64,000 bases of DNA. It comes from a bacterium D16-76. Lineage in GTDB: Bacteria > Bacillota > Clostridia > Oscillospirales > Acutalibacteraceae. Below are positions 14,762 to 42,343 of the stretch, piece by piece. Numbering within the stretch: position 1 is the stretch's first letter; each line of letters begins with the position of its first letter. The stretch covers positions 1-64,000 of the forward strand of contig QZEE01000011.1 in assembly GCA_009917445.1 (NCBI GenBank). Reading direction: 5' to 3'. Position numbers and translations under genes: made by a program. The notes beneath the pieces are model-generated. The model ran no database searches. It had not been told where the DNA came from and saw nothing but the letters and a program-made list of their open reading frames with translations.

Positions 14762-14789
14762 AATCGCATAGAAGCATAAGGCAAAGTTA

Positions 14790-14888
14790 GTCAATAGTCA
14801 AGATGAACGACTACGCTCACTATTGACAGCCCGCCTGTCTTTGCTGGTGGATAATCAAGGGGCGACAGCAAACAATACTGTCGCCCCT
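14790..14888 (+). terminator. Two hairpins after the AraC-family gene
   Basis: GTCAATAGT (14790-14798) pairs with ACTATTGAC (14819-14827), and AGGGGCGACAG (14858-14868) pairs perfectly with CTGTCGCCCCT (14878-14888), followed by a short T-rich run. The second is the better terminator. Confidence 0.7.
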
Positions 14889-14951
14889 CTTAATTATAAA
14901 TGCAACCATAAACTATGCACCAACCCATGTGGGAGAAAGGGGGAATTATTT

Positions 14952-15410
14952 ATGCCTTGTACGGAAGCATACAAAGAACACATCATGTATACTTTCAACG
15001 GCTATTGCAAGACCGTCATACGCTTTGCGGCTATCAACGCATGGCGTGACAGGAGCAGACGGCGGCAAAAAGAAATATCCTTTGAATACCTCACAGAAGA
15101 AAAGTTTTACCCTTTAGGTACAACAGACGAATATTTTGAAGCACCCTATGAAGAATACCCTATTACGATATGTGGTCAGACAGTTATCCTCACCAATGGG
15201 GAGCTTGCCGCCGCCCTGTTATCTCTGCCGGAGAAGAACCGGGAAATCATTTTCCTTTACTTTTTCGGGGATTATACACAACAGGAAATTGGGAAAATGT
15301 ACGGACGCTGCCGGAGTACGACCGGGTATCAAATCCGCAGGACGTTAAAACTCCTGCAAAGGGAAATGGAGGTGCTTTCGCATGGGAAATCCGAACCTCT
15401 TGCCTTATGA
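14952..15410 (+). CDS. Conjugative-element sigma-70 family factor
   Basis: 152 residues from the ATG at 14952, preceded by GGGAGAAAGGGGG. The C-terminal half has a region-4 helix-turn-helix (LPEKNREIIFLYFFGDYTQQ followed by EIGKMYGRCRSTTGYQIRRT). With its overlapping downstream partner it matches the Orf7/Orf8 pair of Tn916-like elements, which control excision and transfer genes. The element part that it would normally regulate is rearranged here. Confidence 0.88.
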   Translation: MPCTEAYKEHIMYTFNGYCKTVIRFAAINAWRDRSRRRQKEISFEYLTEEKFYPLGTTDEYFEAPYEEYPITICGQTVILTNGELAAALLSLPEKNREIIFLYFFGDYTQQEIGKMYGRCRSTTGYQIRRTLKLLQREMEVLSHGKSEPLAL

Positions 15411-17527: not shown

Positions 17528-17549
17528 CTGACGGTATGCCCGCCGTCAG
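17528..17549. terminator. Hairpin between relaxase fragment and recombinase
   Basis: CTGACGG (17528-17534) pairs with CCGTCAG (17543-17549), followed by TTTT on the plus strand. It overlaps the 3' end of the recombinase gene and could serve both convergent units. Confidence 0.55.
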
Positions 17550-19057
17550 ATTTTCCATTCAATTTGCAGCTTCTCACTGGTGGCGCGAATAACGGTAATC
17601 ATCAAATCCACCACCCGCTGCTTGTCCTCAAAGCTGACATTTTCCCAATCATCCAGGTAATTGGAAATCGTGTCAATCTGCTCCGGGGATACGGCCTCGG
17701 CGGTCAGCTTGGCAATCTCGCTGGCAAGGGCCTGGCGGCGGCTGTCCAATTCCTCAATCTTGGTGTTGGCGTAGGAGATCAGCACCGGGGTTGCGCCCGT
17801 CAGCGTGTCCAACAGCTTTTCAATCTCGCTTTCCACTTGGGCCAGCTCCATCTGCTTTGCCGTCAGCTTCGGGCTGGCGGCTCTTTTCTTTTTGCGGCCC
17901 GTCAGCGTTTTGTAGTTCTCCAGCTTCTTCACCATCTGCTGGTAAACTAATTCTTCCAAATCGTGGAGCCGGACAGCACCACAGCCAGGGCAGGATTTAT
18001 TTTCTGCGTGCTTCGAGCAGCGAAAATAGAGATGCCCACAAGAATGAGCTGCCATCAGAGCGTAGCCGCAGTTGCCACACTTGATTTTCCCGGCCATCCA
18101 CGAATGGCGGGCTTTCCTCGCGGGCTGGTAACTTTGGCTTGCCATAATTTTCTTTCGCACCCGAAGCCACAACTCAGACGGGATGAAGCCCTCGCTGGGG
18201 GCCAGCACCAACATCTGGCCTTGCAGATACTTGTGCTTGTTATCGGTGCTGCCCTTGCTCCGATAGTAGTAGCAGCCGTTTGTCCCTACGAAATCGGCGG
18301 CATCGTTGTAAATCTCCGTCCCCTGACTTTTGAAAAACTCGTATATATCCAGGTCAGCCATTGCGTAAATTGGATTGCGGAGGATAAGGCTGATCGTTGA
18401 CCTGGAAAACGGCTTTCCAAAGAATGACCTCACACCTTGGGCCGTAAGCTGGGTGGCGATATCGTGGAGCGAAATGCGAGGGTCGATGTACATATCGTAC
18501 ATCTTGCGAACAAACGCCGCCTCGGTTGGTTCAATTACCAGCTTCTTTGTATGGATGCCGTCAATGATGATCGGCTCCGTCCGAAATCCATACGGCGCTC
18601 TCCCGCCCATTTTGAAACCGCGCTGACACCGAGCATACCATGCGTCCTGCACTCGCTTCTGGATAGTTTCTCGCTCCAACTGCGCGAACACAATGCAGAT
18701 GTTCAGCATGGCCCGGCCCATCGGCGTGGACGTGTCAAACTTCTCTGTTGAGGATATGAACTCCACGTTGTATTCCTGGAACAGCGCCATCATGTTTGCG
18801 AAGTCGAGAATGGAACGGCTGATGCGGTCGAGCTTGTAAACAACCACCCTGGCAATCAGTCCGCGCTTGATGTCCTCCACCAGCATTTGAAACTGGGGCC
18901 TATCCGTATTCTTGCCGCTGTAACCCTTGTCTTGATATTCCTTACAACTCCCGCCTCTCAATTCGTATTTGCAAAACTCAATCTGACTTTCGATAGAAAT
19001 ACTATCTTTCTTGTCGATGGACTGTCTTGCATAAATTGCGTCAATTCGATTGTTCAT
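17546..19057 (-). CDS. Large serine recombinase
   Basis: 503 residues, full length. The resolvase catalytic domain has the serine in YARQSIDKKDSISIESQ (near residue 13), the DKGYSGKNTDRP block and the KLDRISRS arginine motif near residue 75. A recombinase domain follows (GRAPYGFRTEP, LRNPIYAM), then a zinc ribbon (KCGNCGYALMAAHSCGHLYF with a later CPGCGA) and a coiled-coil arm (LAQVESEIEKLLDTL). Such enzymes integrate and excise mobile elements. It converges on the truncated relaxase, so it probably came in with the DNA that replaced the relaxase end. Confidence 0.95.
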   Translation of the reverse strand: MNNRIDAIYARQSIDKKDSISIESQIEFCKYELRGGSCKEYQDKGYSGKNTDRPQFQMLVEDIKRGLIARVVVYKLDRISRSILDFANMMALFQEYNVEFISSTEKFDTSTPMGRAMLNICIVFAQLERETIQKRVQDAWYARCQRGFKMGGRAPYGFRTEPIIIDGIHTKKLVIEPTEAAFVRKMYDMYIDPRISLHDIATQLTAQGVRSFFGKPFSRSTISLILRNPIYAMADLDIYEFFKSQGTEIYNDAADFVGTNGCYYYRSKGSTDNKHKYLQGQMLVLAPSEGFIPSELWLRVRKKIMASQSYQPARKARHSWMAGKIKCGNCGYALMAAHSCGHLYFRCSKHAENKSCPGCGAVRLHDLEELVYQQMVKKLENYKTLTGRKKKRAASPKLTAKQMELAQVESEIEKLLDTLTGATPVLISYANTKIEELDSRRQALASEIAKLTAEAVSPEQIDTISNYLDDWENVSFEDKQRVVDLMITVIRATSEKLQIEWKI

Positions 19058-26378: not shown

Positions 26379-27428
26379 ACGAGACAAAGCACAGCCCCAG
26401 CCTTTCGTTTCACGGAGGAGGAGATGGAGACCGCCAAGGGGACCGACCTGCCGGACCTGCTGGAACACTTGGGCTACACCGTCCGCCGCCTGGGTAGCCG
26501 GTACCACACCACCAGGGAGATGGACAGCCTCCGCATCAAGGACCGCCGCACCTGGAAGCGCTACTCCAACGGCAAGGGCGGGGACGCCATCACGTTTTTG
26601 CAGGAGTTCTGCGGCAAGGACTTCCGGGGGGCGGTGAACTACCTGCTGGAATTCAATGGAGGCCGCGCCGCGTCAGAGCGCAGTCCGCTCAACTCCGTTT
26701 CCGCCTACGGCAAAAACTCCGTTCACTCCCGCGCTCCTCCTTCTCCCATCGAACCCGCTTCGCTGGGCTTCGATGGGAACCCTGAAGTCCCCACCCCACG
26801 CCCCAACCCAGCCGAGCGGTCAGAAAAGCCCGTCTTCACCCTGCCCATCGCCCATGCAGATCAGCGGCGGGTGTTTGCCTATCTTCAAAAGAGAGGCATC
26901 TCCGCCCAGGTCATCCGGGGCTTCATCGAAGCTGGCCTTCTGTATGAGGACAGCCTGCACCACAACTGCGTGTTCGTGGGCCGGGAGGCCAGCGGCAGGC
27001 CGGTGTTCGCCAGCAAGCGCGGCACCTATGACCTGAACGGCCCCGGCTTCAAGGGGGACGCAGTGGGCAGCGACAAAAGCGTGGCCTTCCGCCTCCCCTG
27101 CGACCCGGCCCTGGATTGGGTGGCGGTGTTCGAGGCTCCCATCGACCTTATGAGTTTCTGCACCCTCCACCGGCAGGTGCGGAGCAACGCCGTGGCTCTG
27201 TGCGGCCTGTACCAAGGCCCGCTGGACACCTACCTGCGGGAGAATTCACACCTGAAGCGGATCGTTCTTTGCCTGGATGCGGACGGGCCAGGGCGGGAAG
27301 CTACAGAGAAGTTCCAAGCGGAGTACGCAGAAAAAGGTTACACCGTATCCGCCCGCGCCCCCGCCCAGGGCAAGGATTGGAACGAGTACCTGTTGCAGCG
27401 AGGCCGGACCAGAGAAAGGGGGAAATAG
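26379..27428 (+). CDS. DUF3991/TOPRIM-domain protein, apparent ACG start
   Basis: 349 residues if translation starts at ACG 26379. A textbook AGAAGGAGGTGA sits seven bases upstream of that ACG, an in-frame TGA lies at 26370, and the resulting N-terminus (RQSTAPAFRFTEEEMETAKG) looks like family members; the first in-frame ATG is at 26424. The N-terminal part has a primase-like zinc-finger remnant (YSNGKGGDAITFLQEFCGKD), and the C-terminal TOPRIM region has VFEAPIDLMSFCTL and IVLCLDADGPGREA with the acidic DxD. Such proteins are thought to act in ICE DNA processing. Confidence 0.85.
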   Translation, partial: TRQSTAPAFRFTEEEMETAKGTDLPDLLEHLGYTVRRLGSRYHTTREMDSLRIKDRRTWKRYSNGKGGDAITFLQEFCGKDFRGAVNYLLEFNGGRAASERSPLNSVSAYGKNSVHSRAPPSPIEPASLGFDGNPEVPTPRPNPAERSEKPVFTLPIAHADQRRVFAYLQKRGISAQVIRGFIEAGLLYEDSLHHNCVFVGREASGRPVFASKRGTYDLNGPGFKGDAVGSDKSVAFRLPCDPALDWVAVFEAPIDLMSFCTLHRQVRSNAVALCGLYQGPLDTYLRENSHLKRIVLCLDADGPGREATEKFQAEYAEKGYTVSARAPAQGKDWNEYLLQRGRTRERGK

Positions 27429-27608: not shown

Positions 27609-28574
27609 ATGAAGCGCATTTTCACTATCCTGTGCGCCCTTGCCCTCGTCATGGCCGGGAGCGCCACCGCCCTGGCGGCGGAACCGGAAGCGGGCCAGAG
27701 CGCCAGCTATTACCCCGTGTCCGTGGAGGAGTACACCTACGGCGACTTTGACGAGCTGCGGATCAACAAGACCTATCAGCTCTCGCTGGCAGACGATCCC
27801 AGCCTCATCCCCACCGAGGACTTCATCCGCAACGGGCGGCGCTACTATCTGCTGGACATGACCCGGAAGGACGAGGTGGGGGTGGACATCCAGACCCACA
27901 CCGAGACAGTCACCCAGCCCAGCGACACCAACAGCCTGGAGGCCATCCTCCAGCGGCTGGACGCGGAGATGGAGGTGACCACCGAGGACGGCTATGTGGG
28001 CATCCTTCGGCTGGACCACACCAGCGTCCAGGTGACCACAGACGGCTACGCCACCAAGACCAGCACCCTCTCCGCCAGCCGCAGCTATCCCAATTTGTCT
28101 GAAGCGGACACCTCCCTCATCCCCAAGAGCATCGAGGACAAGGGCAAGACCCTGACCCTGGGAGATGTGAAGTGGAGCGAGTCCATGGATGTGGATGGTG
28201 AGGGCAACCCTGTCACACGGTACACCGCCACCGCCAGTTACACCGGGACCACTTCCAGCCGGTACGCCACCGGCTACACCGTCAGCGCCAGTTACACCGG
28301 CGAGGTGTCCAAGGCCAACTGTGCCGTGGTGACCTACACCGCCATCTTCGGGAGCGAGAAAGCCCCGGAGGAATCCAAAGCTCCTGACGGCGATGAACAG
28401 CACGACTCTGACTCCGGCCAGACGGAGGACCCCAACACTGTGGAGGACTCGGACGCCGTGAAGGAGCCTGCGAACCTGTCCGGCCTGAAACGCCCTGTGA
28501 TGATCGGCGTTGTTGTGCTGGCACTGGCTGGCGGCGGTGTGTTTGCCTTCAAAAAATTCAAAGAACGGAGATGA
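27609..28574 (+). CDS. Exported, C-terminally membrane-anchored protein of the adhesin module
   Basis: 321 residues; GGAGG precedes the ATG. Signal peptide MKRIFTILCALALVMAGSAT-ALAAE; extracellular part of beta-rich sequence with two similar Tyr/Thr-rich stretches (YTATASYTGTTSSRYATGYT, VSASYTGEV); an acidic linker; and a C-terminal membrane span (PVMIGVVVLALAGGGVFAFK) followed by KKFKERR. No LPxTG motif is visible. It starts the block adhesin partner, sortase, transglutaminase-like protein, thioester adhesin. Family known to me only as a conserved ICE gene; function likely in cell-surface contact. Confidence 0.8.
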   Translation: MKRIFTILCALALVMAGSATALAAEPEAGQSASYYPVSVEEYTYGDFDELRINKTYQLSLADDPSLIPTEDFIRNGRRYYLLDMTRKDEVGVDIQTHTETVTQPSDTNSLEAILQRLDAEMEVTTEDGYVGILRLDHTSVQVTTDGYATKTSTLSASRSYPNLSEADTSLIPKSIEDKGKTLTLGDVKWSESMDVDGEGNPVTRYTATASYTGTTSSRYATGYTVSASYTGEVSKANCAVVTYTAIFGSEKAPEESKAPDGDEQHDSDSGQTEDPNTVEDSDAVKEPANLSGLKRPVMIGVVVLALAGGGVFAFKKFKERR

Positions 28575-28581
28575 TAAGCCC

Positions 28582-29430
28582 TTGAAACTGCGAAGTTTTC
28601 TGTTGGCCATGATGCTGTGCGCCTTCTGCGTCACTCAGGCCAGCGCCTTGGAGTACACCTTTGACGCTCCGGAGGACTACCTCTTCGGCCAGCCCACCTC
28701 GGATGACACCATCTACGAGTGGGAGAACCCCAATGTGGACCGGAGCAAGAACACCGCTCTCATCGCCCCCGGCTTCGGGACGCCCACCAGCTACCTCCCC
28801 GGCAGCGGTGAATATCTCACCCCCAACCTCGTCCCCGGCGCGCTGTCTGGCGGGCTGGTCAATCAGGTGGGCAGCGCCAACATCAACGGAGGGACGGCGG
28901 GCAGCTCCGTTGTTCCCGGTGAGTACCCCTCGGTGAGCGGTGGCAGCAACGTCACCATGACCCAGATCCCCGGCGGCAGCCCCACCGATATCGCCCAGGG
29001 CAATACCACGGGCGGCTACACCGAGGTGACAGACGATCTCTACTACGGCAACGGCAGCTTGGGAACCCTGAAGATCCCCGCCATCAACCTGACCGTCAAG
29101 GTCTACCAGGGGACGGACAGTGCCGCGCTGAAGAAGGGCGCCGGCCACTTCACCAACACCAGCATCTGGGATGGAAATGCCTGCTTCGCCGGACATAACC
29201 GAGGGGTGAACAATCACTTCGGGAAGATCCATACCCTGGAGGCGGGCGACACCATCACCCTGACCACCATGCTGGGGACCCGAACCTACTCCGTTGCCAG
29301 CGTGGAGAAGGTCAGTGTCAACGATTCCAGCGGCACCGCCCCCACCACGGATAACCGGGTGACACTCTATACCTGCGTGATGAACCAGCCGGACTACCGC
29401 TGGTGCGTGACCGCTATTCAGCAGGGATAA
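28582..29430 (+). CDS. Sortase family protein
   Basis: 282 residues from a TTG at 28582, eight bases after GGAGATGAT and eight after the previous stop; earlier starts lie inside that gene. N-terminal export signal (KLRSFLLAMMLCAFCVTQAS), a long Gly/Ser/Pro-rich linker (residues 60-155), then the sortase barrel with His205 (CFAGHNRGV), Cys265 (VTLYTCVMN) and Arg273 (DYRWCV), the complete catalytic triad. It probably attaches the neighbouring surface adhesin to the wall or joins subunits. The linker length is unusual for a stand-alone sortase. Confidence 0.9.
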   Translation: MKLRSFLLAMMLCAFCVTQASALEYTFDAPEDYLFGQPTSDDTIYEWENPNVDRSKNTALIAPGFGTPTSYLPGSGEYLTPNLVPGALSGGLVNQVGSANINGGTAGSSVVPGEYPSVSGGSNVTMTQIPGGSPTDIAQGNTTGGYTEVTDDLYYGNGSLGTLKIPAINLTVKVYQGTDSAALKKGAGHFTNTSIWDGNACFAGHNRGVNNHFGKIHTLEAGDTITLTTMLGTRTYSVASVEKVSVNDSSGTAPTTDNRVTLYTCVMNQPDYRWCVTAIQQG

Positions 29431-29523
29431 AACTGTCTGCCGATTGTGTTCGACTTTCCCCATCTTCTGTGGTATGGTTCGGTTTGCAAAGCCCCACCAT
29501 ATTACGAAATGGAGGAATCGAGC

Positions 29524-30351
29524 ATGAAAAGCAGAAAAATCGTGTCCCTGCTCTTGACCGGAGCCATGACAGCGGCCCTGCTGGCCGTCCCCGCCCAAGC
29601 GGCAGAGGCTCCCCAGCCCTACACCATCCAGGCCACCCACTGGAGCCGGGAGGACTTCTCCCAAGAGGCCAGCCCGGAGGTGTTCACCGGCGTGTACAGC
29701 CGGGAGCTGTACAACGCCATCCGCCAGACCATGGTGGACGGGACCAGCAGTACTGCCCCCGCCTACACCATGGTGTCTAAGGAGGACTACAGCGCGGTGA
29801 AGCAGGTGCTGGGCCGCATGGAAGGGGTGCTGCGGTATGAACACCATGTGCCCCAGGGCTTCACCGACTACTGGCGGTATCTGGACTACTTCGCCGTGTC
29901 CGCAGAAATGCCGGAGAACTACCAAGGCCCCTTGGACTTCATCCAGCCGGTCATCGAGGCCACAGCAGAGTTGACGGACCGGGAACGGGTGGAAGCCTTC
30001 AACGACTACATCCGCACCCTGCTGACCTATGAAAAGGGAAAAACAGCCGGCATCACCCAGACCTTCTCCCCCCACGCCGGGGAGCTGAAAGCGGCCTGCG
30101 GGTCCTACGCCAGAGCGCTGAAGTTCCTGTGCGGGGCGGCGGACATCCCCTGCTTCACCATCAGCAGCAAAACCCACACCTGGAACCTCGTGTATGTGGA
30201 CGGTCAATGGCTCCATGTGGACGTGTCCGCCAACGACCTCTCCAGCAGGAACGGGGTCCTGCTGGTGGAAAGCTACCAGACCGGGAGGGATCAGGCCCCG
30301 GAGGCCACCGCCTTCCTCAAGGAACTATTCGTACCCGGATCAACGAAATAA
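29524..30351 (+). CDS. Secreted transglutaminase-like cysteine protein
   Basis: 275 residues with GGAGGAATC upstream. Signal peptide MKSRKIVSLLLTGAMTAALL-AVPAQA. The transglutaminase-like core has Cys192 (LKAACGSYARALKFLC), His218 (SKTHTWNLVYVDG) and Asp233 (WLHVDVSAND), a complete triad. Such domains in secreted bacterial proteins may cross-link or cleave peptides. Its place between sortase and a thioester adhesin suggests processing or cross-linking of that adhesin, which is inference. Confidence 0.9.
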   Translation: MKSRKIVSLLLTGAMTAALLAVPAQAAEAPQPYTIQATHWSREDFSQEASPEVFTGVYSRELYNAIRQTMVDGTSSTAPAYTMVSKEDYSAVKQVLGRMEGVLRYEHHVPQGFTDYWRYLDYFAVSAEMPENYQGPLDFIQPVIEATAELTDRERVEAFNDYIRTLLTYEKGKTAGITQTFSPHAGELKAACGSYARALKFLCGAADIPCFTISSKTHTWNLVYVDGQWLHVDVSANDLSSRNGVLLVESYQTGRDQAPEATAFLKELFVPGSTK

Positions 30352-30437
30352 GCAAGATACATCCTTCACGCTGGCAGGCCGGAAAACGGCCTGCCGCTTT
30401 TTTGTTCTCAAACAGACAGTATCAGAAAGGAGACTTC

Positions 30438-32630
30438 ATGAAACACAAGCCTTTTACCCGTTTTCTCTCCCTGTTGTTGGTGGTGGCTACGCTGGCCAGC
30501 CTGTTCACCCTGCCCGCCAGCGCCGCCTCGCTGAACGGCAGCGGCACCGTCAACATCCAGTACCTGGGCCGCCATGAGTACCTGTCCAAAAGCACGGGCG
30601 GCAGCCTGAGCGGCAGCAGTTGGAGCTACACCAGCAACGATGGACTCACCGGCACCGCCTACTGCGTCAACTGGGGCCTGTCGGCAGTCTCGCCCAACAA
30701 GGCCCTGACCCTGCAGGAGTACAACCGGAACCCCCAGACCATGGGCGTGTTCGCCAATGGCTACCCCATGCGCACCCTGGAGCAGTTCAAGGAGCTGCAT
30801 CCCGATGACGTGCGGGGCATCGCCAGTCTGACGGAGGACGAGTACAAATACGCCACCCAGGTGGCGGTCTGGGCCTCCTGCGGCCAGCTCTCCGTCCCCG
30901 GCACATCCTTCACCGCTGGTCGGGCCGCCCTGGTGGAGCCGACCGCAGACGCCCAGAAGATCCGGGTGTATGACAGCGTCAAGGCCATGCTGAAATACTC
31001 TGCCCACTGGACGAAGAACCTCCACACCGGCCTGTCCATCCGGGCGGAGGAGGATAAAGATGTCCGTGGTGTGGAAGTACTTAACGAGTATGGACTGGAG
31101 GGCGCCGCCGCCGACAACGAGGATGGCATCAAAAAGGAGACCATCAACGGAAAAGAGTATTACACCCGCTTGATGTATCTGGCCTCCGCCACCTCTACCT
31201 GGATCGACGGCCGCAAGACCAAAGTCTATTCCACAGACGCCCCCTCTGGCACCATCTTCGTAGCGGAGAACAATTCCCCCCTGGAGACGGTGCAGGAAAA
31301 CGGGGCTGTCTGCTATAAGGTGGACACCAGCAGAGCGCACAATACCAACCTCAACTCCAACGGCGAGGAATACTACGGGACATTCAAGGTCTGTATCCCC
31401 GTAGACAATGCCGCCGCCGAGGGCAGCTTTACCATCAAGGCCATCGGCGGTGTGGCGCAGTACAACCTGTTCCTGGCCTATAACCCCTCCGCCTCGGAGC
31501 AGTCCTATATCGTGGCCGACCCCGGATATACCACCCTGGAGGCCCAGGCCCCCTTCAAGTGGAGCGGCTCGGATCTCCCGGAGAACGCCAGCCTCCAGAT
31601 CGTCAAGGCCGGCGCGGGCGGTGCGCCCCTGGAGGGGGCCGAGTTCACCCTCACCGGCAGCGGCGGCACCACCGTCTCCGGCACCAGCGACCGCAATGGC
31701 CAGATCGTCTGGACGGACCTTCCTGCGGACGAGACCTACACCCTGACCGAGACCGCCGCCCCGGAGGGCTACCAGGTCATCGCCCCCATGAACATCACCC
31801 TCACCGCTGGCCGCACCGAGTATGTGACCGTGACGGATGAGACCAATAAGGGCTTCACCATCAAAAAGGTGGACGCTCAGAACAAGGCTTCCCTCCAGGG
31901 GGCCGTGTTCGTCTTTGAGCAGATCGATGGCAGCTATAAGACCACCGGCATCACCGGCTTTGACGGCACTATCTCCTTCCAGGGGGATGAGCTGCCCTAC
32001 GGCAGCTACCGGGTGACGGAGCAGTCCGCGCCGGATGGCTACCAGAAGGATACCCGTGTGGAGACGGTGGAGTGGGACGGGACCAGGGATGTGACCATCA
32101 CCTTCGAGAATGTTCGTGACATCGGCCTGACCATTGTGAAAAAGGATGGGGATACCGGCGTGTCTCTGCCTGGGGCCACCTTCGATGTGTTTGCCGATGG
32201 TGAGAAGATCACCTCCGTCACCACCAATGACGCCGGCGAGGCGTATGTGTACGGCATCAAAAAGGAAGCCTACATCGAGATCGTGGAGACTGCCGCCCCC
32301 ACGGGCTATGTGCTGGATAAGACGCCCCATGGCATCCACATCGACGCATACGACCCCGCTATCCAGGACGATCCCGTCCTGACAGTGGTCAACCACAGTA
32401 AAGCCTCCCTGCGGATCATCAAGATGGACCGGCAGAGCGGGGACCGGCTCCCCGGCGTGACCTTTGAGATCTACAAGGACACAGAGCTGTTCGACACCAA
32501 GACCACCAACGACAACGGCGAGATCTTGCTCTATGATCTGGAACCCGGCACCTATCTTGTCAAAGAGGTGGCCACCGAAGCTGGCGAAAAAACACAAGCT
32601 GCTGTTCTCGGTCATCAAAGACAAGGATGA
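30438..32630 (+). CDS. Cys-Gln thioester surface adhesin with CnaB/SpaA repeats, C-terminus lost
   Basis: 730 residues; AGAAAGGAG precedes the ATG. After the signal peptide (cut near ASAA, residue 30) a thioester domain is recognisable: Cys76 in TAYCVNWG and Gln141 in YATQVAVWAS match the C...TQxAxW pattern. Four CnaB-like modules follow, beginning SLQIVKAGAG, FTIKKVDAQN, LTIVKKDGDT and LRIIKMDRQS, each with a lysine and an E-x-A-P-x-G-Y type strand for isopeptide bonds. The fourth stops at VKEVATE and 14 unrelated residues follow; no sorting signal remains. The gene is fused to a DUF3801 remnant by deletion. Confidence 0.88.
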   Translation: MKHKPFTRFLSLLLVVATLASLFTLPASAASLNGSGTVNIQYLGRHEYLSKSTGGSLSGSSWSYTSNDGLTGTAYCVNWGLSAVSPNKALTLQEYNRNPQTMGVFANGYPMRTLEQFKELHPDDVRGIASLTEDEYKYATQVAVWASCGQLSVPGTSFTAGRAALVEPTADAQKIRVYDSVKAMLKYSAHWTKNLHTGLSIRAEEDKDVRGVEVLNEYGLEGAAADNEDGIKKETINGKEYYTRLMYLASATSTWIDGRKTKVYSTDAPSGTIFVAENNSPLETVQENGAVCYKVDTSRAHNTNLNSNGEEYYGTFKVCIPVDNAAAEGSFTIKAIGGVAQYNLFLAYNPSASEQSYIVADPGYTTLEAQAPFKWSGSDLPENASLQIVKAGAGGAPLEGAEFTLTGSGGTTVSGTSDRNGQIVWTDLPADETYTLTETAAPEGYQVIAPMNITLTAGRTEYVTVTDETNKGFTIKKVDAQNKASLQGAVFVFEQIDGSYKTTGITGFDGTISFQGDELPYGSYRVTEQSAPDGYQKDTRVETVEWDGTRDVTITFENVRDIGLTIVKKDGDTGVSLPGATFDVFADGEKITSVTTNDAGEAYVYGIKKEAYIEIVETAAPTGYVLDKTPHGIHIDAYDPAIQDDPVLTVVNHSKASLRIIKMDRQSGDRLPGVTFEIYKDTELFDTKTTNDNGEILLYDLEPGTYLVKEVATEAGEKTQAAVLGHQRQG

Positions 32631-33159
32631 CAAGGGCAAGGTGCTGGATGTGATCCTGCCGGTGACGGAGCTGGATCGGGCCAACTCCATTTTTGAGCGC
32701 ATCCTCTACACCCTGCCCCCGGAACCGGAGCGCAGGCCCGCCAAGCCGCTCCAGAAGGGGCATGAGGTGTTCCAACCGGAACGCCAAGCCCAGGAGCGGC
32801 AGGTTCCGGAGCAGGTGCAGGTCAGGCGGCAGGAGCGCAGGCCCCAGGAGGCCCCTGTGAGGCCACCCCAGCCCCAGCGGGAGGTATCCCAGCGGTCGGC
32901 AGAGCAGGGCCGCCAGGAGGCCCCTGTGCCCCAGCGTCAGGAGAACAAGGGAAAAAACGGTTCTCGGTCGGAACGAGACTCGCACGTTACAAAAATCAAC
33001 TCCTCTATGCCCAAAGAGAGCGGCGCTTCGAGGGGGACGAGTGAGCGTCCCTCCATTGCGGCGCGTCTGGAGGCGCATCGGGCGCAGGTGAGGAGACCGT
33101 CCGCTCCGGCCAGAGAAAAAGCAAAATCTGTTGCGAAAAACAGGCCCAAAACGAGATAA
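32578..33159 (+). pseudogene. DUF3801/PcfB-like protein, N-terminus deleted
   Basis: In the frame next to the adhesin the sequence KLAKKHKLLFSVIKDKDDKG and VLDVILPVTELDRANSIFER matches the C-terminal half of DUF3801/PcfB proteins, which normally lie between the adhesin and VirD4 and assist the coupling protein. A Gln/Arg/Pro-rich tail follows (PERQAQERQVPEQVQVRRQE and more), ending in basic residues. No start or N-terminal half exists; the match begins where the adhesin homology ends, near 32577. Confidence 0.75.
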
Positions 33160-33322: not shown

Positions 33323-35128
33323 CTGAATCAACAATCCCGGACGGGTAAACTCGCCGTTTACCTGTTCCTCTACATCCCCGTGGTCTGGGCGGCGCTGCTG
33401 CTGGCTCAGTCCCTGGGCGGCGGCCTGCCCGACATCATTGCCAACCTGACGGCAGCGATGGAACACCCCTTCCGCATACAGTGGACGAATCACAGCCTTG
33501 TGACCATCCTGGTCTGTACCGGGGCGTACATCATGGGGATATGCCTCTACGCCGACCAGCAGGGCCGAACCCGTGACGGCGAGGAACACGGCTCCGCCGC
33601 CTGGGCCTCCCCACGGCAGGTCAACGCCATGTTCGCTCAGAAACAGAACAAGCTGCTGACCAAAAACGTCCGCCTGGGGCTGGATACCCACAAGCACCGC
33701 CGCTCCCTGAACGTGCTGGTCATCGGCGGCTCCGGCGCGGCCAAGACAAGAAGCTATGTGAAACCCAACATCCTGGAGGCCAACACCAACTATGTAATCA
33801 CAGACCCCAAGTCCGAAGTCCTGCTGGCCACGGGCGGCTACCTCAAAAGCCAAGGGTACGATATCCGGGTGCTGAACCTCGTTAACCTGGAGGAGAGCGA
33901 TGGATACAACCCCTTCCGCTACATCCGGGACGAGAAGGACGCTCTGCGTCTGGTGAACAATCTCATCCAGGCCACCACGCCCAAAGGCAGCCACGAAAGT
34001 GACCCGTTTTGGACGAAAGCGGAAACGGCGCTGCTGCAGGCCATTATCCTCATGCTGTGGCAGGAGGCCCCGGAGTACGAACAGAACTTCTCCATGGTCA
34101 TGCGGGTACTGGAGTACGCCGAGGTGAAGGAGGAGGACGAGGAGTACGTCTCCCCACTGGATCTTCTCTTCCAGTCTATTGAGCGGGAGAAGCCAGACAG
34201 CGTGGCGGTGAGGCAGTACAAAGTCTTTAAAATGGCCGCCGGCAAGACCTCAAAATCGATCTTGGTGTCCACCGCCGTTCGGCTGGCCCCCTTCAACCTG
34301 CCCCAGATCAAGGCCATCACAGACAGGGACGATATGGACCTCTACACCCTGGGGGAGCAGAAGTGCGCGCTCTACGCCGTCATACCCGACAACGACCAGA
34401 GCTTTAACTTTTTAGTGAGCCTGCTCTACGCCCAAGCGTTCCAGGCCCTCTACTACAGCGCGGACCAGATCCACCACGGAACCTTGCCCTGCCACGTCCA
34501 CTTTATATTGGATGAGTTCGCCGCCATGCCCCTCCCAGGCTTCACCCGTGAGCTGGCCACCATGCGTTCCCGCAACATTTCGGCAAGCACCATTATTCAG
34601 AATATGGCACAAATCAAGGAACTTTTTAAGGATAGTTGGGAGACAATTCCGGGTAATAGTGACACAATTCTGTACTTGGGCGGCAACGAATCGTCAACGC
34701 ATAAGTACATTTCGGAAGCCCTTGGGAAAGCCACGATTGACACCCGAACCCACGGTCAGACCAAGGGCAAATCCGGATCGTACTCCACTAATTTTCAAAT
34801 GAGCGGCCGCGAACTTTTAACCCCAGATGAGGTGCGTGGGCTGGACAACCGCTACGCCATCCTGTTCATCCGGGGCGCCAAGCCGGTGATGGATCTGAAG
34901 TATGAGCTGACCGAACACCCCGCCATCCGCCACACTATTGATGGCGGCGGGCCGCCCTACATCCACCATCAGGAAAAGCCTGAACCCAAATTCCAGGGGG
35001 AACCGCTGTTCGCCCCGGAAACCGAGATATCTGATGAAGAAAAGGAGATTGAACCCTATGAAGATTTTCCAGAAATCCCAGACCCCCAAGAAGCCCCTGA
35101 ACACCCTGGAGCGCCAGAAGAAGATTGA
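33323..35128 (+). CDS. VirD4/TraG-type conjugative coupling protein, apparent CTG start
   Basis: About 601 residues. The N-terminus that aligns with relatives (NQQSRTGKLAVYLFLYIPVV) begins at CTG 33323, five to eight bases after GAGGTGAGG; no ATG, GTG or TTG lies upstream in frame after the stop at 33251. Two N-terminal membrane spans are followed by Walker A (VIGGSGAAKTRSYVKPN) and Walker B (HFILDEFAAMPLPGF). The acidic C-terminus (EISDEEKEIEPYEDFPEIPD) may contact the relaxosome. VirD4 couples the relaxase-DNA complex to the transport channel. Confidence 0.93.
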   Translation: MNQQSRTGKLAVYLFLYIPVVWAALLLAQSLGGGLPDIIANLTAAMEHPFRIQWTNHSLVTILVCTGAYIMGICLYADQQGRTRDGEEHGSAAWASPRQVNAMFAQKQNKLLTKNVRLGLDTHKHRRSLNVLVIGGSGAAKTRSYVKPNILEANTNYVITDPKSEVLLATGGYLKSQGYDIRVLNLVNLEESDGYNPFRYIRDEKDALRLVNNLIQATTPKGSHESDPFWTKAETALLQAIILMLWQEAPEYEQNFSMVMRVLEYAEVKEEDEEYVSPLDLLFQSIEREKPDSVAVRQYKVFKMAAGKTSKSILVSTAVRLAPFNLPQIKAITDRDDMDLYTLGEQKCALYAVIPDNDQSFNFLVSLLYAQAFQALYYSADQIHHGTLPCHVHFILDEFAAMPLPGFTRELATMRSRNISASTIIQNMAQIKELFKDSWETIPGNSDTILYLGGNESSTHKYISEALGKATIDTRTHGQTKGKSGSYSTNFQMSGRELLTPDEVRGLDNRYAILFIRGAKPVMDLKYELTEHPAIRHTIDGGGPPYIHHQEKPEPKFQGEPLFAPETEISDEEKEIEPYEDFPEIPDPQEAPEHPGAPEED

Positions 35129-35426
35129 GCGCCGCGCGAAGCGGGCCTACGCCCTCTTCGCCTGCTTGGTGATGTCTATGGCCGTCATGATCGTCCCCGC
35201 CTTCGCGGCGGACGATCCCCTTCAGATCGTGGAAAATTTGTCCGACTTCATCTTTTCCCTGATCCGGGCCATCGGCCTGATCCTGCTGGGCTTCGGCATC
35301 CTCCAGCTGGGCCTGTCCCTCAAGAGCCACGACCCCTCCCAGCGCGCCAACGGTATGCTCACCATCGCCGGCGGCATTGTCATCACTTTCACGAAGGAGA
35401 TCCTCACCCTCATCACTGGCGGTTGA
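35058..35426 (+). CDS. Maff2-family membrane protein
   Basis: 122 residues. The ATG at 35058 follows AAAGGAG inside the VirD4 gene, overlapping it by 71 bases. A basic N-terminus (KKPLNTLERQKKIERRAKRA) precedes an export-like segment and two spans (SLIRAIGLILLGFGILQLGL and MLTIAGGIVITFTKEILTLI). Maff2 proteins are small T4SS components resembling VirB2/VirB3-type pilins; the role is inferred from position. Confidence 0.88.
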   Translation: MKIFQKSQTPKKPLNTLERQKKIERRAKRAYALFACLVMSMAVMIVPAFAADDPLQIVENLSDFIFSLIRAIGLILLGFGILQLGLSLKSHDPSQRANGMLTIAGGIVITFTKEILTLITGG

Positions 35427-35494: not shown

Positions 35495-36340
35495 ATGGGA
35501 AGCGGAAACTGGATCGTGGACAACCTGAACTCCGCCCTGGGGACCTGGAATGGGAAGCTGGCAGAGATCTGGCAGCTCCTCAGCACCACCCCGGAGGAGT
35601 TCAAAGGCGGCGGAGTCTGGACGGTCATTGAGGGCATCAACGGGGCGCTCCAGGCCATCGGCTGCGCCCTGCTGGTGCTGTTTTTCGTGATGGGCGTAGT
35701 CAAGACCTGCGGCAGCTTTACGGAATTAAAGAAGCCGGAGATGGTATTCAAGTGCTTTATCCGTTTTGTGCTGGCCCAGGCGGCGGTGACCCACGGGATG
35801 GAACTGATGACGGCGCTCTTCAAGGTGGCGCAGGGCATGATCTCCACCATCATGACGGCCTCCGGGCTGTCGGCGCTCACCGACACCACCCTGCCCGCTG
35901 AGATGGTCACCATCATCGAGGACGTGGGCTTCTTGGAGAGCATCCCCCTCTGGGCCATTACCCTGCTGGGGTCGTTGTTTATTTGGGTGCTGTCCCTGAT
36001 CATGATTTTAACCGTCTATTCCCGGTTTTTCAAGCTCTATCTCGCCACGGCCATCGCCCCCATCCCCATGGCCAGCTTCGCGGGACAGCCCTCCAGCAGT
36101 ATTGGCGTGGCCTTTCTCAAGAGCTACGCCGCAATCTGTCTGGAGGGCTGTATCATCGTGTTAGCCTGTGTGATCTTCTCGGCCTTTGCCTCCACACCGC
36201 CCGCCATCGCGGACGATACCCTGGCGGCGGCCACCATCGTGTGGAACTATGTAGGCGAGGTGATTTTTAATATGCTTGTCTTGGTGGGCTGCATCAAAAT
36301 GAGCGATAGGCTGATCCGGGAACTGATGGGGCTGGGCTGA
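35495..36340 (+). CDS. VirB6/TrbL-like conjugal transfer membrane protein
   Basis: 281 residues with AAGGAAGGTGATG before the ATG. Six to seven membrane segments (ALQAIGCALLVLFFVMGVVK; AITLLGSLFIWVLSLIMILT; CLEGCIIVLACVIFSAFAST; NMLVLVGCIKMSDRLI). LYLATAIAPIPMASFAGQPS is a conserved block of this family. It forms part of the inner-membrane channel of the type IV secretion system. Confidence 0.9.
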   Translation: MGSGNWIVDNLNSALGTWNGKLAEIWQLLSTTPEEFKGGGVWTVIEGINGALQAIGCALLVLFFVMGVVKTCGSFTELKKPEMVFKCFIRFVLAQAAVTHGMELMTALFKVAQGMISTIMTASGLSALTDTTLPAEMVTIIEDVGFLESIPLWAITLLGSLFIWVLSLIMILTVYSRFFKLYLATAIAPIPMASFAGQPSSSIGVAFLKSYAAICLEGCIIVLACVIFSAFASTPPAIADDTLAAATIVWNYVGEVIFNMLVLVGCIKMSDRLIRELMGLG

Positions 36341-37390: not shown

Positions 37391-37744
37391 ATAGAAGTCC
37401 GCATCAACAAAGAAGTCCGGGACTACCAGGAGAGCCTGTTCTTCGGGCTGTCTCTGCGGCAGTTCCTGTTCGCCCTGCTGGCCGTGCTGGTGGCGGTAGG
37501 GCTGTATTTCGGCCTGCGCAACGTGGTGGGCAGCGGGGAGATCGGCTGGATCTGCATCCTGGCAGCGTTCCCCTTCGCCCTCTGCGGCTTTTTCACTTAC
37601 AACGGCATGACCTTTGAACGATTCCTCCTCGCCGTCATCCGCTCGGAGTTGCTGTACCCCAGAAAGCTGGTGTTCCGGGCGGAGAACCTCTACGCCCAGG
37701 CGATGGAGCATTCCACAGTAAAGGAGGCACTGAAGATTGATTAA
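37391..37744 (+). CDS. PrgI-family T4SS membrane protein, apparent ATA start
   Basis: 117 residues. The family N-terminus (EVRINKEVRDYQESLFFGLS) begins at ATA 37391, seven bases after GGAGGTGATC, with an in-frame TGA at 37382 and no other start until a GTG at 37484 inside the protein. Two membrane spans follow (QFLFALLAVLVAVGLYFGLR, IGWICILAAFPFALCGFF). PrgI corresponds to VirB3 in Gram-positive T4SS and is always found just upstream of VirB4. Confidence 0.85.
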   Translation: MEVRINKEVRDYQESLFFGLSLRQFLFALLAVLVAVGLYFGLRNVVGSGEIGWICILAAFPFALCGFFTYNGMTFERFLLAVIRSELLYPRKLVFRAENLYAQAMEHSTVKEALKID

Positions 37745-40073
37745 AACCCTACAAAATACGCTGAAGCAGGATCGGGAGGGCTTCGTCCTTCCCAAGTCCG
37801 TGCAGGACGCCATCCCCATCCGCCGCCTCTGGCCGGATGGGATTTTTCAATTCGGAAGCAAATTCTCCAAGACCATCCGCTTCTCGGATATCAACTATGC
37901 GATTGCTTCAAAAGAAGATAAGACGTCCATGTTCCTGGGCTACTCGGAGCTGCTCAATGCCCTGGACACCGGCTCCACCACCAAGCTCACCATCAACAAC
38001 AAGCGCCTCAACCGCCAGGACTTCGAGCAGAAGATCCTCCTGCCCCGTCAGGACGATTACCTGGACGGCTACCGGGCGGAGTACAACGCCATGCTCATGG
38101 ACAAGGTCACCGACTCCTCCAATAGTGTGGTGCAGGAACGATACATCACCCTGTCCGTCCACCGCAAGAGCATCGAGGAGGCCCGCACTTTCTTCGACCG
38201 GGTGACAGCGGATGTGACCACCCGCCTGAGCCACCTGGACGCCCACAGCGAGGAGCTGGACGCCGTGGAGCGTCTCCGGGTGTTGCATGACTTCTACCGC
38301 ACTGGCGAGGAAACGGAGTACCATCTGGATCTGCGGGATCTCATGCGGAAGGGCCACAGCTTCAAGGATACCATCTGCCCGGACAGCCTGGAGTTCAAGA
38401 AGGACTATTTTGTCATGGGGGACAAGTTTGGCCGGGTGCTGTTCCTCAAGGAGTACGCCAGCTATATCAAGGACAGCATGATTTCCGAGCTGACGGCACT
38501 GAACCGCACCATGATGCTGTCCATTGACGTGATCCCCGTCCCCACGGATGAGGCCGTCCGGGAGATGCAGAACCGGCTCCTCGGTGTTGAGACCAACGTG
38601 ACCAACTGGCAGCGGCGGCAGAACAGCAACAACAATTTCTCCGCCGTTGTTCCTTACGATTTGGAACAGCAGCGGAAAGAAACCCGTGAGATGCTGGACG
38701 ATCTCACCACCCGCGATCAGCGGATGATGTTCGCCGTGGTGACCTTGGTGCATCTGGCGGACAGCAAAGAGGAGTTGGACAGCGACACCGATGCCCTCCA
38801 GTCCGCCGCCCGGAAGCATCTGTGCCAGCTCTCCACCCTGAACTGGCAGCAGGCGGACGGGCTGGTGACCGCCCTGCCTCTGGGCCTGCGGCGGATCGAC
38901 GCCCTGCGGACACTAACCACCGAGGCGCTGGCCGTCCTCATGCCCTTCAAGGCCCAGGAGGTGCGGGACCAGGGCGGGGTGTATTACGGGCAAAACGTCA
39001 TCAGCAAGAACCTCATCATCGCCAACCGGAAGGAACTGCTCAACGGCAACGGCTTCGTCCTGGGTGTATCCGGCTCCGGCAAGTCCTTCACCGCCAAGCG
39101 GGAGATGGTCAATCTGGCCCTCTCCACCGATGACGATATCATCGTAATCGACCCGGAAAACGAGTACCGGCCCCTCATTGAAGGTTTGGGCGGCGAGGTG
39201 ATCAATATTTCCGCCACCTCCCCCAACCACATCAACGCCATGGACATGGAGCAGGGCTACGGGGACGGCGAGAACCCGGTGGTGCTGAAGTCCGAGTTCC
39301 TGCTGTCCCTGTGTGAGCAGCTCATGGGGGACCGGCTGCTGTCCGCCAAAGAGAAATCCATCATCGACCGCTGCACCGCCAATGTCTACCACAGCTACAT
39401 CAAGGGCGGCTACCAGGGGAAAGCCCCCACCCTCCAGGACTTCCACGCCGAACTGCTCCGCCAGTCCGAGCCGGAGGCGCGGGACGTGGCCCTGGCAATC
39501 GAGCTGTTCACCGAGGGCAGCCTCAACACCTTTGCCAAGCCCACCAATGTGGACACAGACGCCCGTATCCTGTGCTACGACATCCGGGATCTGGGTAAGC
39601 AGCTCCTTCCTGTGGGGATGCTGGTGGTGCTGGACAGCGTGTTCAACCGGGTCATCCGCAACCGGGCGCTGGGCAGGAACACCTGGGTCTATATTGACGA
39701 GATTTATATCCTGTTTCAGCATGAATACAGCGCAAATTTTCTCTTTACTTTGTGGAAACGGGTGAGAAAGTACGGGGCACTGTGTACAGGTGCCACCCAG
39801 AATGTGGAAGATTTGCTCCAGTCCCACACCGCCCGGACCATGCTGGCCAACAGCGAGTTCCTGGTCATGCTGAACCAGGCGGCGACCGACCGGGCGGAGC
39901 TGGCGCGGCTGCTGAACATCTCGGACAACCAACTCTCCTACATCACCAACGTGGATTTCGGCAGGGGCCTCATCAAGTGCGGCAGCGCCATCGTGCCGTT
40001 TGTGGACAATTTCCCCAAGAACCGGCTCTACCGCTTGATGACCACCAGGCTGAGTGAGACCAACGTCGCCTGA
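37737..40073 (+). CDS. VirB4-type conjugative ATPase
   Basis: 778 residues, full length. It starts with TTG 37737, overlapping the PrgI stop by eight bases. Walker A is VSGSGKSFTAKRE (near residue 445) and Walker B is TWVYIDEIYILFQHEYSAN. The N-terminal half has family blocks (FSDINYAIASKEDKTSMFLG; LSIDVIPVPTDEAVREMQNR). VirB4 powers substrate transfer through the channel. Intact relatives are followed by an NlpC/P60 wall hydrolase and other genes; here the next sequence is an unrelated gene fragment. Confidence 0.95.
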   Translation: MIKTLQNTLKQDREGFVLPKSVQDAIPIRRLWPDGIFQFGSKFSKTIRFSDINYAIASKEDKTSMFLGYSELLNALDTGSTTKLTINNKRLNRQDFEQKILLPRQDDYLDGYRAEYNAMLMDKVTDSSNSVVQERYITLSVHRKSIEEARTFFDRVTADVTTRLSHLDAHSEELDAVERLRVLHDFYRTGEETEYHLDLRDLMRKGHSFKDTICPDSLEFKKDYFVMGDKFGRVLFLKEYASYIKDSMISELTALNRTMMLSIDVIPVPTDEAVREMQNRLLGVETNVTNWQRRQNSNNNFSAVVPYDLEQQRKETREMLDDLTTRDQRMMFAVVTLVHLADSKEELDSDTDALQSAARKHLCQLSTLNWQQADGLVTALPLGLRRIDALRTLTTEALAVLMPFKAQEVRDQGGVYYGQNVISKNLIIANRKELLNGNGFVLGVSGSGKSFTAKREMVNLALSTDDDIIVIDPENEYRPLIEGLGGEVINISATSPNHINAMDMEQGYGDGENPVVLKSEFLLSLCEQLMGDRLLSAKEKSIIDRCTANVYHSYIKGGYQGKAPTLQDFHAELLRQSEPEARDVALAIELFTEGSLNTFAKPTNVDTDARILCYDIRDLGKQLLPVGMLVVLDSVFNRVIRNRALGRNTWVYIDEIYILFQHEYSANFLFTLWKRVRKYGALCTGATQNVEDLLQSHTARTMLANSEFLVMLNQAATDRAELARLLNISDNQLSYITNVDFGRGLIKCGSAIVPFVDNFPKNRLYRLMTTRLSETNVA

Positions 40074-40493: not shown

Positions 40494-41122
40494 ATGATTA
40501 AGAATACGAAAGCTACCAAGCTTGCCGGGTACGAGGCCAGCGAGCCGATTTCCTTTAGCGTTAAGCTGCCTGCCGGTTTTGTTACAGATACCACAAAAGA
40601 CGATGTGATTGTTAAGCACTGGGACAAATTCAAGCCTCAGGTGATCGAGTGGCTTTCGACTACTGTTTCGGAGACTAAAGCAAATTACACCGCCACCTTT
40701 GAAGCCACTACTTTCAGCCCCTTTGAGCTGACTGTCGATGCGCGCACCGCTGCCGTTGAATATACAACCTGTTCAAAGACGTACCCACCGACATTGCCGA
40801 GTACGGCACAGCCATCAAGTGGGCGGTTGAGAAGGGCATCACCCTGGGTACTGACACGGTAGCTTACAGCACCTTCAGCCCCTACAACCCCTGCACCCGC
40901 GCCCAGATGGTCGTGTTCCTGTATCGCGCGGCGGGCAGCCCGGCTGTCAGCGGCACTAACGCCTTTACCGACGTGCCTGGCGACGCCGAGATCCAGAAGG
41001 CCGTCCAGTGGGCGGTAAGCAAGGGCATCACCAAGGGCACCAGCGACACGACCTTTGACCCCTACGGCCCCTGCACCCGCGTGCAGATGGTGACTTTCCT
41101 GTATCGAGATATGGGGAAGTAA
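40494..41122 (+). pseudogene. S-layer-homology (SLH) surface protein remnant, frameshifted
   Basis: One frame gives a beta-rich adhesin-like part (DKFKPQVIEWLSTTVSETKA, TFEATTFSPFELTVDAR). Near 40765-40775 the sense passes to another frame with FKDVPTDIAEYGTAIKWAVE, then GSPAVSGTNAFTDVPGDAEI and CTRVQMVTFLYRDMGK, two SLH modules. SLH domains bind pyruvylated wall polymers. No signal peptide is left at the start. A frameshift or small deletion and a missing N-terminus mark it as a remnant. Confidence 0.82.
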
Positions 41123-41429
41123 GCCAAATTTGACATGAGTACAAGAAATCACATATCTATCTAAGGGGAAGGGCAGCGCATAAGCGCTGCCCTTCCTTCC
41201 ATTAGAGAAAAACCACCTCCTGTGGTGCCGTAATGCAGGTAAAAGGTGGCTGTTGCGATAAACTCGTGGCCGGCCTCCTGATGGATACCGTCTGCCTGTG
41301 GTTGACTGGTATTCCTCTCTTTTAATCCTGTTCTGAAGTGTCGGCAGATAGGACGCCCCGCCCCCATGTAAATTTTCCTCCCCCTATATTACACTTATAA
41401 AAAAACAGCCGGAAAGCAGACGATCCTAC
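41123..41429. other. Gene-free stretch with strong terminator
   Basis: GGAAGGGCAGCGC (41167-41179) pairs perfectly with GCGCTGCCCTTCC (41184-41196), 13 bp with a 4-nt loop, closing the SLH remnant. The remaining bases to 41429 hold no supported gene; an AT-rich segment near 41380-41405 could be an old promoter for the decayed GTPase that follows. Confidence 0.75.
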
Positions 41430-42343
41430 TTGAAAGACATCCTTAACATCGGCATTGTAGCCCACGCAGATGCGGGGAAAACGACCGGCTCACCGAGCTG
41501 GCCGCTGAAAACAACCCCCAGGCCGAGGCCTGCTTTCTGTCCGATGAACCCGTCCCCCTCCCTATCCTGCGCCGGGTGTTCTTGGAACAGATTGCCGCCC
41601 GCCAAGCCTTCCCCGTCTGCTTTGGGGCAGCGGCGCTGGGGGTCGGCATAAAAGAAACTGCTGGAAAGCATCACCCTGTTGCCCAAGACATCCCGGCAGG
41701 CAGAGGGGCCCCTCTCCGGGCTGGTCTACAAGGTGGAACACGGCAGGCCATGGGCAAAGCCGCCCATGTGCGGCTGTTTTCCGGGGCCCTTTCCAACCGC
41801 GACCCGGTACCCCTGCGGAGGCGGGAGACGGTGGAGAAAGTCACCCAGATACGCCGGGTGCTGGCCCACCGCACGGTGGACATGGGTACGCTTATGGCGG
41901 GGGACATTGGGGCGCTGTACGGGCTCTCCCATGTGTGCACGGGGGGTGGCGGCCTTGTTCCGGGAAGTCACCCTGGCGGTGCCGCTGCTGAAAGCCCAGG
42001 CGCTGCCCCAATCGCCGGAACAGCCGCCCCGGCTGGTGGAGGCCCTGGGGGAATTGACGGAAGAAGACCCGCTGCTGGACATGGAACAGCACGCCGGGCG
42101 GCTCATCCGGGACATTGTCGCCATGCGCGGCGCCTTTGAGCCGCCCATACGCCACAAGGGCAGCTTGACCAGCGGCAAAGGCGTCCTCAGCAGCCGCTTT
42201 GCTGGGTATGAGCCCTGCGCCTTAAAGCTGGGCCGGACCGCCCGGCGGCGGGGCATTGACTCCAGGGACCGGGCCAAATGGATACTCCATTCGCGCAGCG
42301 CGCTGCAGGGCCCGAAGATGGTTATGCCGTCTTCGAACATATA
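41430..42343 (+). pseudogene. Decayed TetM-family ribosomal-protection GTPase
   Basis: The start KDILNIGIVAHADAGKTT is the GTPase P-loop of Tet(M)/Tet(W) proteins; a two-base insertion near 41483 and a large deletion remove the rest of the G domain. In successive frames follow AFPVCFGAAALGVGIKE, SGLVYKVEHGRPWAK, HVRLFSGALSNRDPVPLRRR with VEKVTQIRRVLAHRTVDMGT, RLVEALGELTEEDPLLDMEQ, and a C-terminal block GKGVLSSRFAGYEP with LGRTARRRGIDSRDRAKWIL. At least three frame changes and two deletions are seen. GC-rich codons suggest a chromosomal or long-resident tet-like gene rather than recent tetM. Confidence 0.82.

Follow-up and report, generated by a model that had tools for sequence, protein, structure and literature searches.

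Introduction

Among the closest described relatives of the system considered here is TIEpLS20 (p34 of the Bacillus subtilis plasmid pLS20), a protein with a signal peptide, a class II thioester domain (TED) and a CnaB-type stalk, which is encoded in a conjugation operon and for which a covalent attachment between donor and recipient has been proposed (PMC8092201). It is needed for efficient conjugation and its function is lost when the cysteine is mutated (PMC8092201). Here we analyze a DNA stretch of 64,000 nucleotides (the window) from contig QZEE01000011.1 of the bacterium D16-76, a member of the Acutalibacteraceae, in which a TED adhesin is encoded among conjugation genes in a cassette with an exported membrane-anchored protein (P1), a sortase and a secreted transglutaminase-like protein (TG). 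The adhesins of this cassette, which reach about 1,800–3,800 residues in intact relatives, have a terminal LPxTG motif and a dedicated sortase, whereas TIEpLS20 has 778 residues, lacks an LPXTG motif, needs no sortase and has no reported partner of the P1 or TG kind (PMC8092201).

Other known proteins share single features with the cassette. BaTIE, SaTIE and EfmTIE86 have the same class II head fold, but they are sortase-anchored through a classical signal and are not described in conjugation machinery (PMC6194298). PrgB of pCF10 and comparable LPXTG adhesins from conjugative plasmids are element-encoded cell-wall adhesins that promote mating-pair formation, but the polymer adhesin domain of PrgB binds lipoteichoic acid and no thioester has been reported (PMC12857230). 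The conjugative transposons CTn1 and CTn7 of Clostridioides difficile also carry CnaB-repeat LPXTG proteins (CD0386 and CD3392), of which CD3392 is a shown substrate of the sortase SrtB; the available parts of these sources describe two CnaB repeats, with no ligand-binding domain identified and no dedicated cassette of sortase, P1 and TG (PMC3158075, PMC5569036). A second element in the genome of D16-76 itself (locus L041; contig C65, 22000–40000) also combines a TED adhesin and a sortase with VirD4 and VirB4, but in a layout unlike that of the cassette: VirD4, VirB6 and VirB4 are followed by an adhesin of 2,011 amino acids, an exported protein and the sortase, and the adhesin has a classical sorting signal of VPKTG, a membrane span and a charged tail.

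A preliminary description of this DNA knew of no account of the combination as a system. That holds for the four-gene set, which we did not find in the open-licence papers searched, but not for TED adhesins in conjugation, which have been published; conjugative elements are also known to carry adhesins anchored by a sortase. What is apparently new is the P1 family, its pairing with a sortase, the exchangeable third gene and the tail-less adhesin terminus, since the same papers yielded none of these four and nothing relevant on tail-less LPXTG substrates or on the combination of TG, sortase and conjugation.

A four-gene cassette conserved in conjugative elements

We consider that the cassette is probably a surface-attachment device of conjugative elements in gut Clostridia, whose adhesin would covalently fasten the mating pair. 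The reading draws on the conservation and order of the genes, their linkage to type IV secretion system (T4SS) genes, the class II TED fold, the catalytic residues, the tail-less C-terminus and one fusion of P1 with its sortase. In the window the four genes lie head to tail on the + strand with intergenic gaps of 7, 93 and 86 bases, flanked by a primase gene upstream and by PcfB and VirD4 genes downstream (Table 1). The preliminary description had read four exported proteins in line between DNA-processing genes and VirD4, and all four genes were confirmed. So were the details it gave of them: the sortase retains its His, Cys and Arg (motifs AGHNRG, YTC and YRW), TG has Cys192, His218 and Asp233, which are invariant in seven relatives, and the adhesin has four SpaA/CnaB stretches. 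Signal peptides were assigned by eye, without a predictor.

A profile built from TG relatives was run against 84,980 genomes and identified 48 clear relatives (L046–L093). The order P1, sortase, TG, adhesin is present at 32 of the 48 loci; eight others fit the module but end at contig edges, and at eight TG stands alone, in some cases broken. Because this search starts from TG, second searches were run from P1 and then from the adhesin C-terminal domain, and both recovered the same neighborhood. Nearly all matches of the P1 search have the P1–sortase pair, often beside VirD4 and VirB4, and this pair is the constant core of the cassette. Since other genomes have the identical order at 32 loci, the four-gene arrangement is far from chance, and the conserved linkage on which the preliminary description had made its proposal depend was thus found. 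It is extremely improbable that four genes without a common function were brought together by an accident of mobile-element assembly. The locus in the window is rearranged and lone TG genes exist, as such an accident would allow, but the shared order spans wide divergence, the reverse search agrees with the first, and P1 and the sortase have been fused.

Of 291 genomes of the class, 10 have the adhesin C-terminal domain, as do 2 of 398 in a phylum sample, a patchy spread as expected of mobile elements. Six P1 matches in genome G135 (contigs C24, C123, C194, C229, C231 and C284) suggest that a single cell, or a single metagenome bin, holds more than one of these elements. Genome G133 has two lone TG genes (L035/L076 and L038/L082) without adjacent P1, sortase or adhesin. 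When the TG protein was compared with a plasmid collection there was one weak, irrelevant match.

Position among the transfer genes

The VirD4 of the window belongs to the CD1115 family and its VirB4 to the CD1110 family, as in conjugative elements of the CTn4/Tn1549 type; the range CD1091–CD1118 is CTn4 of C. difficile 630 (PMC3158075). In three elements the end of the adhesin gene is only 3 (L166), 43 (L167) or 35 (L172) bases from VirD4, and L166 repeats the order of the window: primase, P1, sortase, the protein in the third slot, adhesin, VirD4 and the next T4SS gene. Ten TG modules have VirD4 on the same contig and strand at a distance of 6–30 kb, while others adjoin genes for VirB6-like, VirB4 or NlpC/P60 proteins. 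The search with the adhesin C-terminal domain led to further T4SS loci (L224, L225, L226, L229, L234, L236 and L237). A tie of adhesin and sortase to conjugation had been proposed from the window, and a thioester adhesin with a sortase is indeed conserved in conjugative elements.

The preliminary description left two functions open, covalent mating-pair attachment and attachment to a host. The former is the most reasonable, because TIEpLS20 is required for efficient conjugation in a cysteine-dependent manner; a mating role for the cassette would thus rest on gene position and on this precedent. The latter would make the cassette a gut-colonization cargo that merely rides the element, with a thioester that binds host mucus or matrix proteins. 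The TEDs of SfbI and FbaB do bind host fibrinogen covalently (PMC4450167), and animal gut metagenomes are the source of many of the genomes. We nevertheless regard the cargo explanation as unlikely, as the adhesin gene is within 3–43 bases of VirD4 in three elements and elsewhere has T4SS genes on both sides, a location typical of transfer genes, and TIEpLS20 shows a TED working in mating (PMC8092201).

The adhesin head has a class II TED fold

An AlphaFold2 model of the adhesin head, made with 31 sequences, has a predicted local distance difference test (pLDDT) score of 92.7. In structure comparison it is nearest to class II TEDs (BaTIE, 6FWV, Z 18.9 over 262 residues; 6FWY, Z 18.5) and less close to those of class I (Z 11–13), and the model has the class II fold with its beta-sandwich insertion. 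When the TED sequence profile was compared with PDB sequences only chance matches were obtained, so that the kinship is visible by structure alone. Both the [YFL]C-phi-zeta and the TQxx-phi-W motifs are present, as YCVN at Cys76 and TQVAVW at residues 140–145, and the motif Cys, Gln and Trp are invariant across the 31 sequences.

The preliminary description had joined Cys76 to Gln141, and this assignment had to be abandoned; with the pair misassigned, the distance between these two residues, on which it had also made its proposal depend, has no bearing on the matter. In characterized TEDs the bonding glutamine sits in a weak C-terminal motif, and the bond does not require the glutamine of TQxx-phi-W (PMC4450167, PMC6194298). 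By the published motif definitions and by structure alignment, Gln141 is the glutamine of the TQxA helix. The structure-based mapping gives Gln355 as the likely partner instead. The alignments pair model residue 332 with residue 268 of SfbI and residue 582 of Cpa. For Cpa we take the thioester glutamine to be residue 575 (Pointon et al. 2010). For SfbI it is residue 261 (PMC4450167). In both proteins the bonding glutamine therefore lies seven residues before the end-point, which corresponds to model residue 325, or adhesin Gln355, provided that the last seven residues before the end of the alignment range are free of gaps. CpTIE (Gln267, end-point 276 against model residue 335) yields residue 326, which puts the precision of the mapping at about one residue. 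Gln355 is the only glutamine at the mapped position and lies in an invariant EQSYI. It is thus the best candidate and most likely the bond partner of Cys76, with which a thioester would form in the folded head.

An LPxTG terminus without a membrane tail

Intact relatives have an LPxTG motif near the C-terminus, as classical LPXTG proteins do, and this has been lost from the window copy. When the adhesins were grouped at less than 80% identity, LPxTG followed by one residue was the end of the protein in 24 of 25 clusters, the exception (L069) being a reverse-strand frame without any sign of an adhesin. An alignment of 21 divergent C-termini shows invariant L, P, T and G, with K, R or T at X, Y or W at the last position and a linker of variable length. 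More distant relatives, found independently, end in IPKTGY, MPRTGY, LPQTGF, LPRTGC, LPRSGW or LPKTGM, always one residue past the glycine. A scan of 148 related genomes for LPxTGY directly before a stop codon gave, among long open frames, only adhesins with the same C-terminal domain.

No hydrophobic span or charged tail follows the motif. The highest hydropathy over 15 residues within the last 45 is at most 1.04, compared with 1.95 for the classical adhesin of the same genome, in which VPKTG precedes its membrane span. A membrane tail hidden behind readthrough or a frameshift was considered and rejected: there is no conserved hydrophobic stretch after the stop in any frame, and all three stop codons are used.

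The conservation of LPxTG-X is the behavior one would expect of a recognition motif, though one that departs from the usual sorting signal, and the bare tail may well be sorted by the sortase of the cassette. Alternatively the terminus has no role in sorting, the adhesin is retained noncovalently and the sortase serves other proteins. The span and charged tail of characterized signals are indeed absent, and TIEpLS20, needing no sortase, must be held noncovalently (PMC8092201). This alternative appears somewhat unlikely to us, given that the four residues are invariant while X, the last residue and the linker vary, that the distant variants (L/I/M, T/S and Y/W/F/C/M) retain the pentapeptide pattern, and that a sortase gene lies just upstream of the adhesin gene nearly always. 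A more far-reaching proposal is that the cassette defines a new class of sortase substrates, giant adhesins with a bare LPxTG-X end that are handled by a sortase working with P1, which would replace the retention tail, and which serve as a covalent mating device with an interchangeable accessory slot throughout a broad group of Clostridial T4SS elements. We put this forward tentatively, as possible but a little less than evenly probable.

P1 and its sortase

P1 has no match in Pfam, NCBIfam or PHROGs, yet it is conserved in an alignment of 24 rows (A3). An AlphaFold2 model gives an ectodomain with pLDDT mostly 77–94 and a helix at model residues 276–299. A fold search of the PDB gave no match with E below 0.001, the best (Z 6.7, a phage neck protein) being in the range that the tool treats as uninformative. 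In L236 P1 and the sortase are fused in one frame of 474 codons (13726–15150), in the order P1 ectodomain, membrane span, second hydrophobic stretch and sortase domain. This single fusion suggests a physical partnership of the two proteins, in which P1 would keep the sortase at the membrane, and perhaps the adhesin as well. The third gene of L236 has a CAP-like signature (SWMNSPGHRANVL) and its adhesin ends in LPRSGW.

The sortase of the window falls below the NCBIfam class cut-offs (class C, 59.7 of 160 bits; class D, 56.7 of 165; class E, 59.4 of 160), and its orthologue in L055 aligns to PDB sortases of several classes.

The exchangeable third gene

The third slot holds TG, a CAP-domain protein (L157), another protein that shares the N-terminal stalk domain (L166), or is empty (L167, L172); in L173 it also holds a protein other than TG, next to a TED adhesin. 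The CAP-domain proteins of this slot (L157:11691–12431, L162 and L163) begin with a stalk domain related to it (PF07833, weak in L157). In L157 and L162 the accompanying adhesin has no TED match, and it is possible that the type of third gene is coupled to the type of adhesin head.

The preliminary description suggested that TG perhaps matures the adhesin, and one might extend this to cross-linking as part of the attachment chemistry. The catalytic triad is intact and conserved, and a TED adhesin nearly always follows the TG gene. However, TED adhesins occur without TG in L167 and L172 and with a different third protein in L166 and L173, and CAP-domain proteins take the slot elsewhere, so that TG is dispensable, which argues against maturation. 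Many members of the PF01841 superfamily are not cross-linkers. In characterized TEDs, moreover, the thioester most likely arises by itself as the protein folds (PMC4450167). We reject TG as an obligatory maturase and find any part for it in maturing or cross-linking the adhesin quite improbable; the best explanation is that TG has an accessory role and can be exchanged for other proteins.

In all 46 complete TG proteins the C-terminus is at most four residues from [VIA]P-x-S-T, mostly as KELLVPGSTK, which resembles a sorting pentapeptide. The parallel to LPxTG makes a second sorting signal a tempting reading, but lone TG genes keep VPxST and the other third-slot proteins lack it.

The copy in the window

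Table 1. Positions of the cassette and neighboring transfer genes in the window
Feature	Position	Strand	Evidence and remarks
Toprim/DUF3991 primase-like protein	26424..27428	+	PF13155, PF13154; also upstream of the module in L046, L047, L051, L166
P1, exported, membrane-anchored	27609..28574	+	Signal peptide, beta-rich ectodomain, acidic linker, C-terminal membrane helix
Sortase with signal peptide, TTG start	28582..29430	+	PF04203, 83 bits (cut-off 26.6), 1.5e-23
TG, secreted transglutaminase-like protein	29524..30351	+	PF01841, 28.2 bits (cut-off 23); C-terminus KELFVPGSTK
Adhesin, shortened, ATG 30438	30438..32630	+	PF08341 TED, 33.3 bits (cut-off 22); four PF17802; signal peptide
Deletion junction, adhesin (frame lost) to 3' part of PcfB	32575..32579		End of relatives' homology
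Open reading frame with PcfB/DUF3801 remnant	32464..33159	+	PF12687, profile positions 51–130 only
VirD4-type coupling protein, CD1115 family	33380..35128	+	NF045973, 520 bits (cut-off 250)
Small TrbC/VirB2-like membrane protein	34938..35426	+	PF04956, weak, 24 bits, below cut-off of 27.9
VirB6-like membrane protein	35495..36340	+	Gene order; 36% identity to post-VirD4 protein of L041; no Pfam match
VirB4-type ATPase, CD1110 family	37737..40073	+	NF045971, 1044 bits (cut-off 325)

The start of the adhesin gene is the ATG given in Table 1, the start of 30129 listed for its open reading frame being wrong. Nucleotide homology to six relatives (L046, L052, L058, L060, L066 and L067) ends at 32575–32578, and past about 32578 the adhesin frame enters the PcfB (DUF3801) gene out of frame. 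PcfB lacks about the first 50 positions of its profile, and the first approximately 115 bases of the open reading frame with its remnant are adhesin DNA in another frame. From the end of the adhesin homology and the out-of-frame PcfB without its start it follows that a deletion took most of the stalk, the tail and the start of PcfB. Of the native adhesin about 713 residues are left, against about 2,360 in L046, the closest intact relative. As most of the stalk and the tail are gone, the copy in the window is a shortened remnant and presumably nonfunctional.

A homologue of the TrbC/VirB2-like protein directly follows VirD4 in L166, L167, L236 and L242. Downstream of VirB4, at 40494–41651, are a short remnant of a repeat protein and a fragment resembling the start of a tetracycline ribosomal-protection gene (MKDILNIGIVAHADAGKTT), further signs of decay of this element. 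No cell-wall hydrolase was seen among the open reading frames read after VirB4, in a reading that was no systematic search for the relaxase or for the complete gene set. A large serine recombinase at 17546–19057 on the − strand (PF00239, PF07508, PF13408) is a candidate integrase of the element that carries the module or of a neighboring one.

Proposed mechanism and implications

In the mechanism we propose, an intact adhesin would be exported bearing a class II thioester domain as its head and numerous CnaB domains as its stalk. The sortase, beside P1, would cleave the LPxTG tail and fix the adhesin to the donor envelope, with P1 doing the holding that is otherwise done by the membrane tail of ordinary sortase substrates. 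The predicted Cys76–Gln355 thioester could then react with an amine on the recipient cell, locking the mating pair while DNA is transferred by the T4SS. TG would perhaps act on the surface of donor or recipient, and not as a required maturase.

Several observations weigh against this account. The assignment of Gln355 stands on alignment end-points and not on distances, and the head is not always a thioester domain, as the adhesins of L157 and L162 have no recognized TED. The fusion of P1 and sortase is a single case, and the sortases of L235, L237 and L238 carry an ordinary membrane anchor. No module neighbors TG at L049, L069–L071, L076 and L082, and the published TIEpLS20 works without a sortase.

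Little is known of how donor and recipient are held together when Gram-positive bacteria conjugate, and for TIEpLS20, the one thioester adhesin shown to work in mating, its authors could not say how it is anchored (PMC8092201). A cassette that encodes, along with the T4SS, an adhesin with a sortase of its own and a membrane protein as partner offers a testable answer to the question of anchoring in abundant gut bacteria. If it is true that a sorting signal can function without a membrane tail, this would change how sortase substrates are recognized in genomes, which is normally done by the hydrophobic tail.

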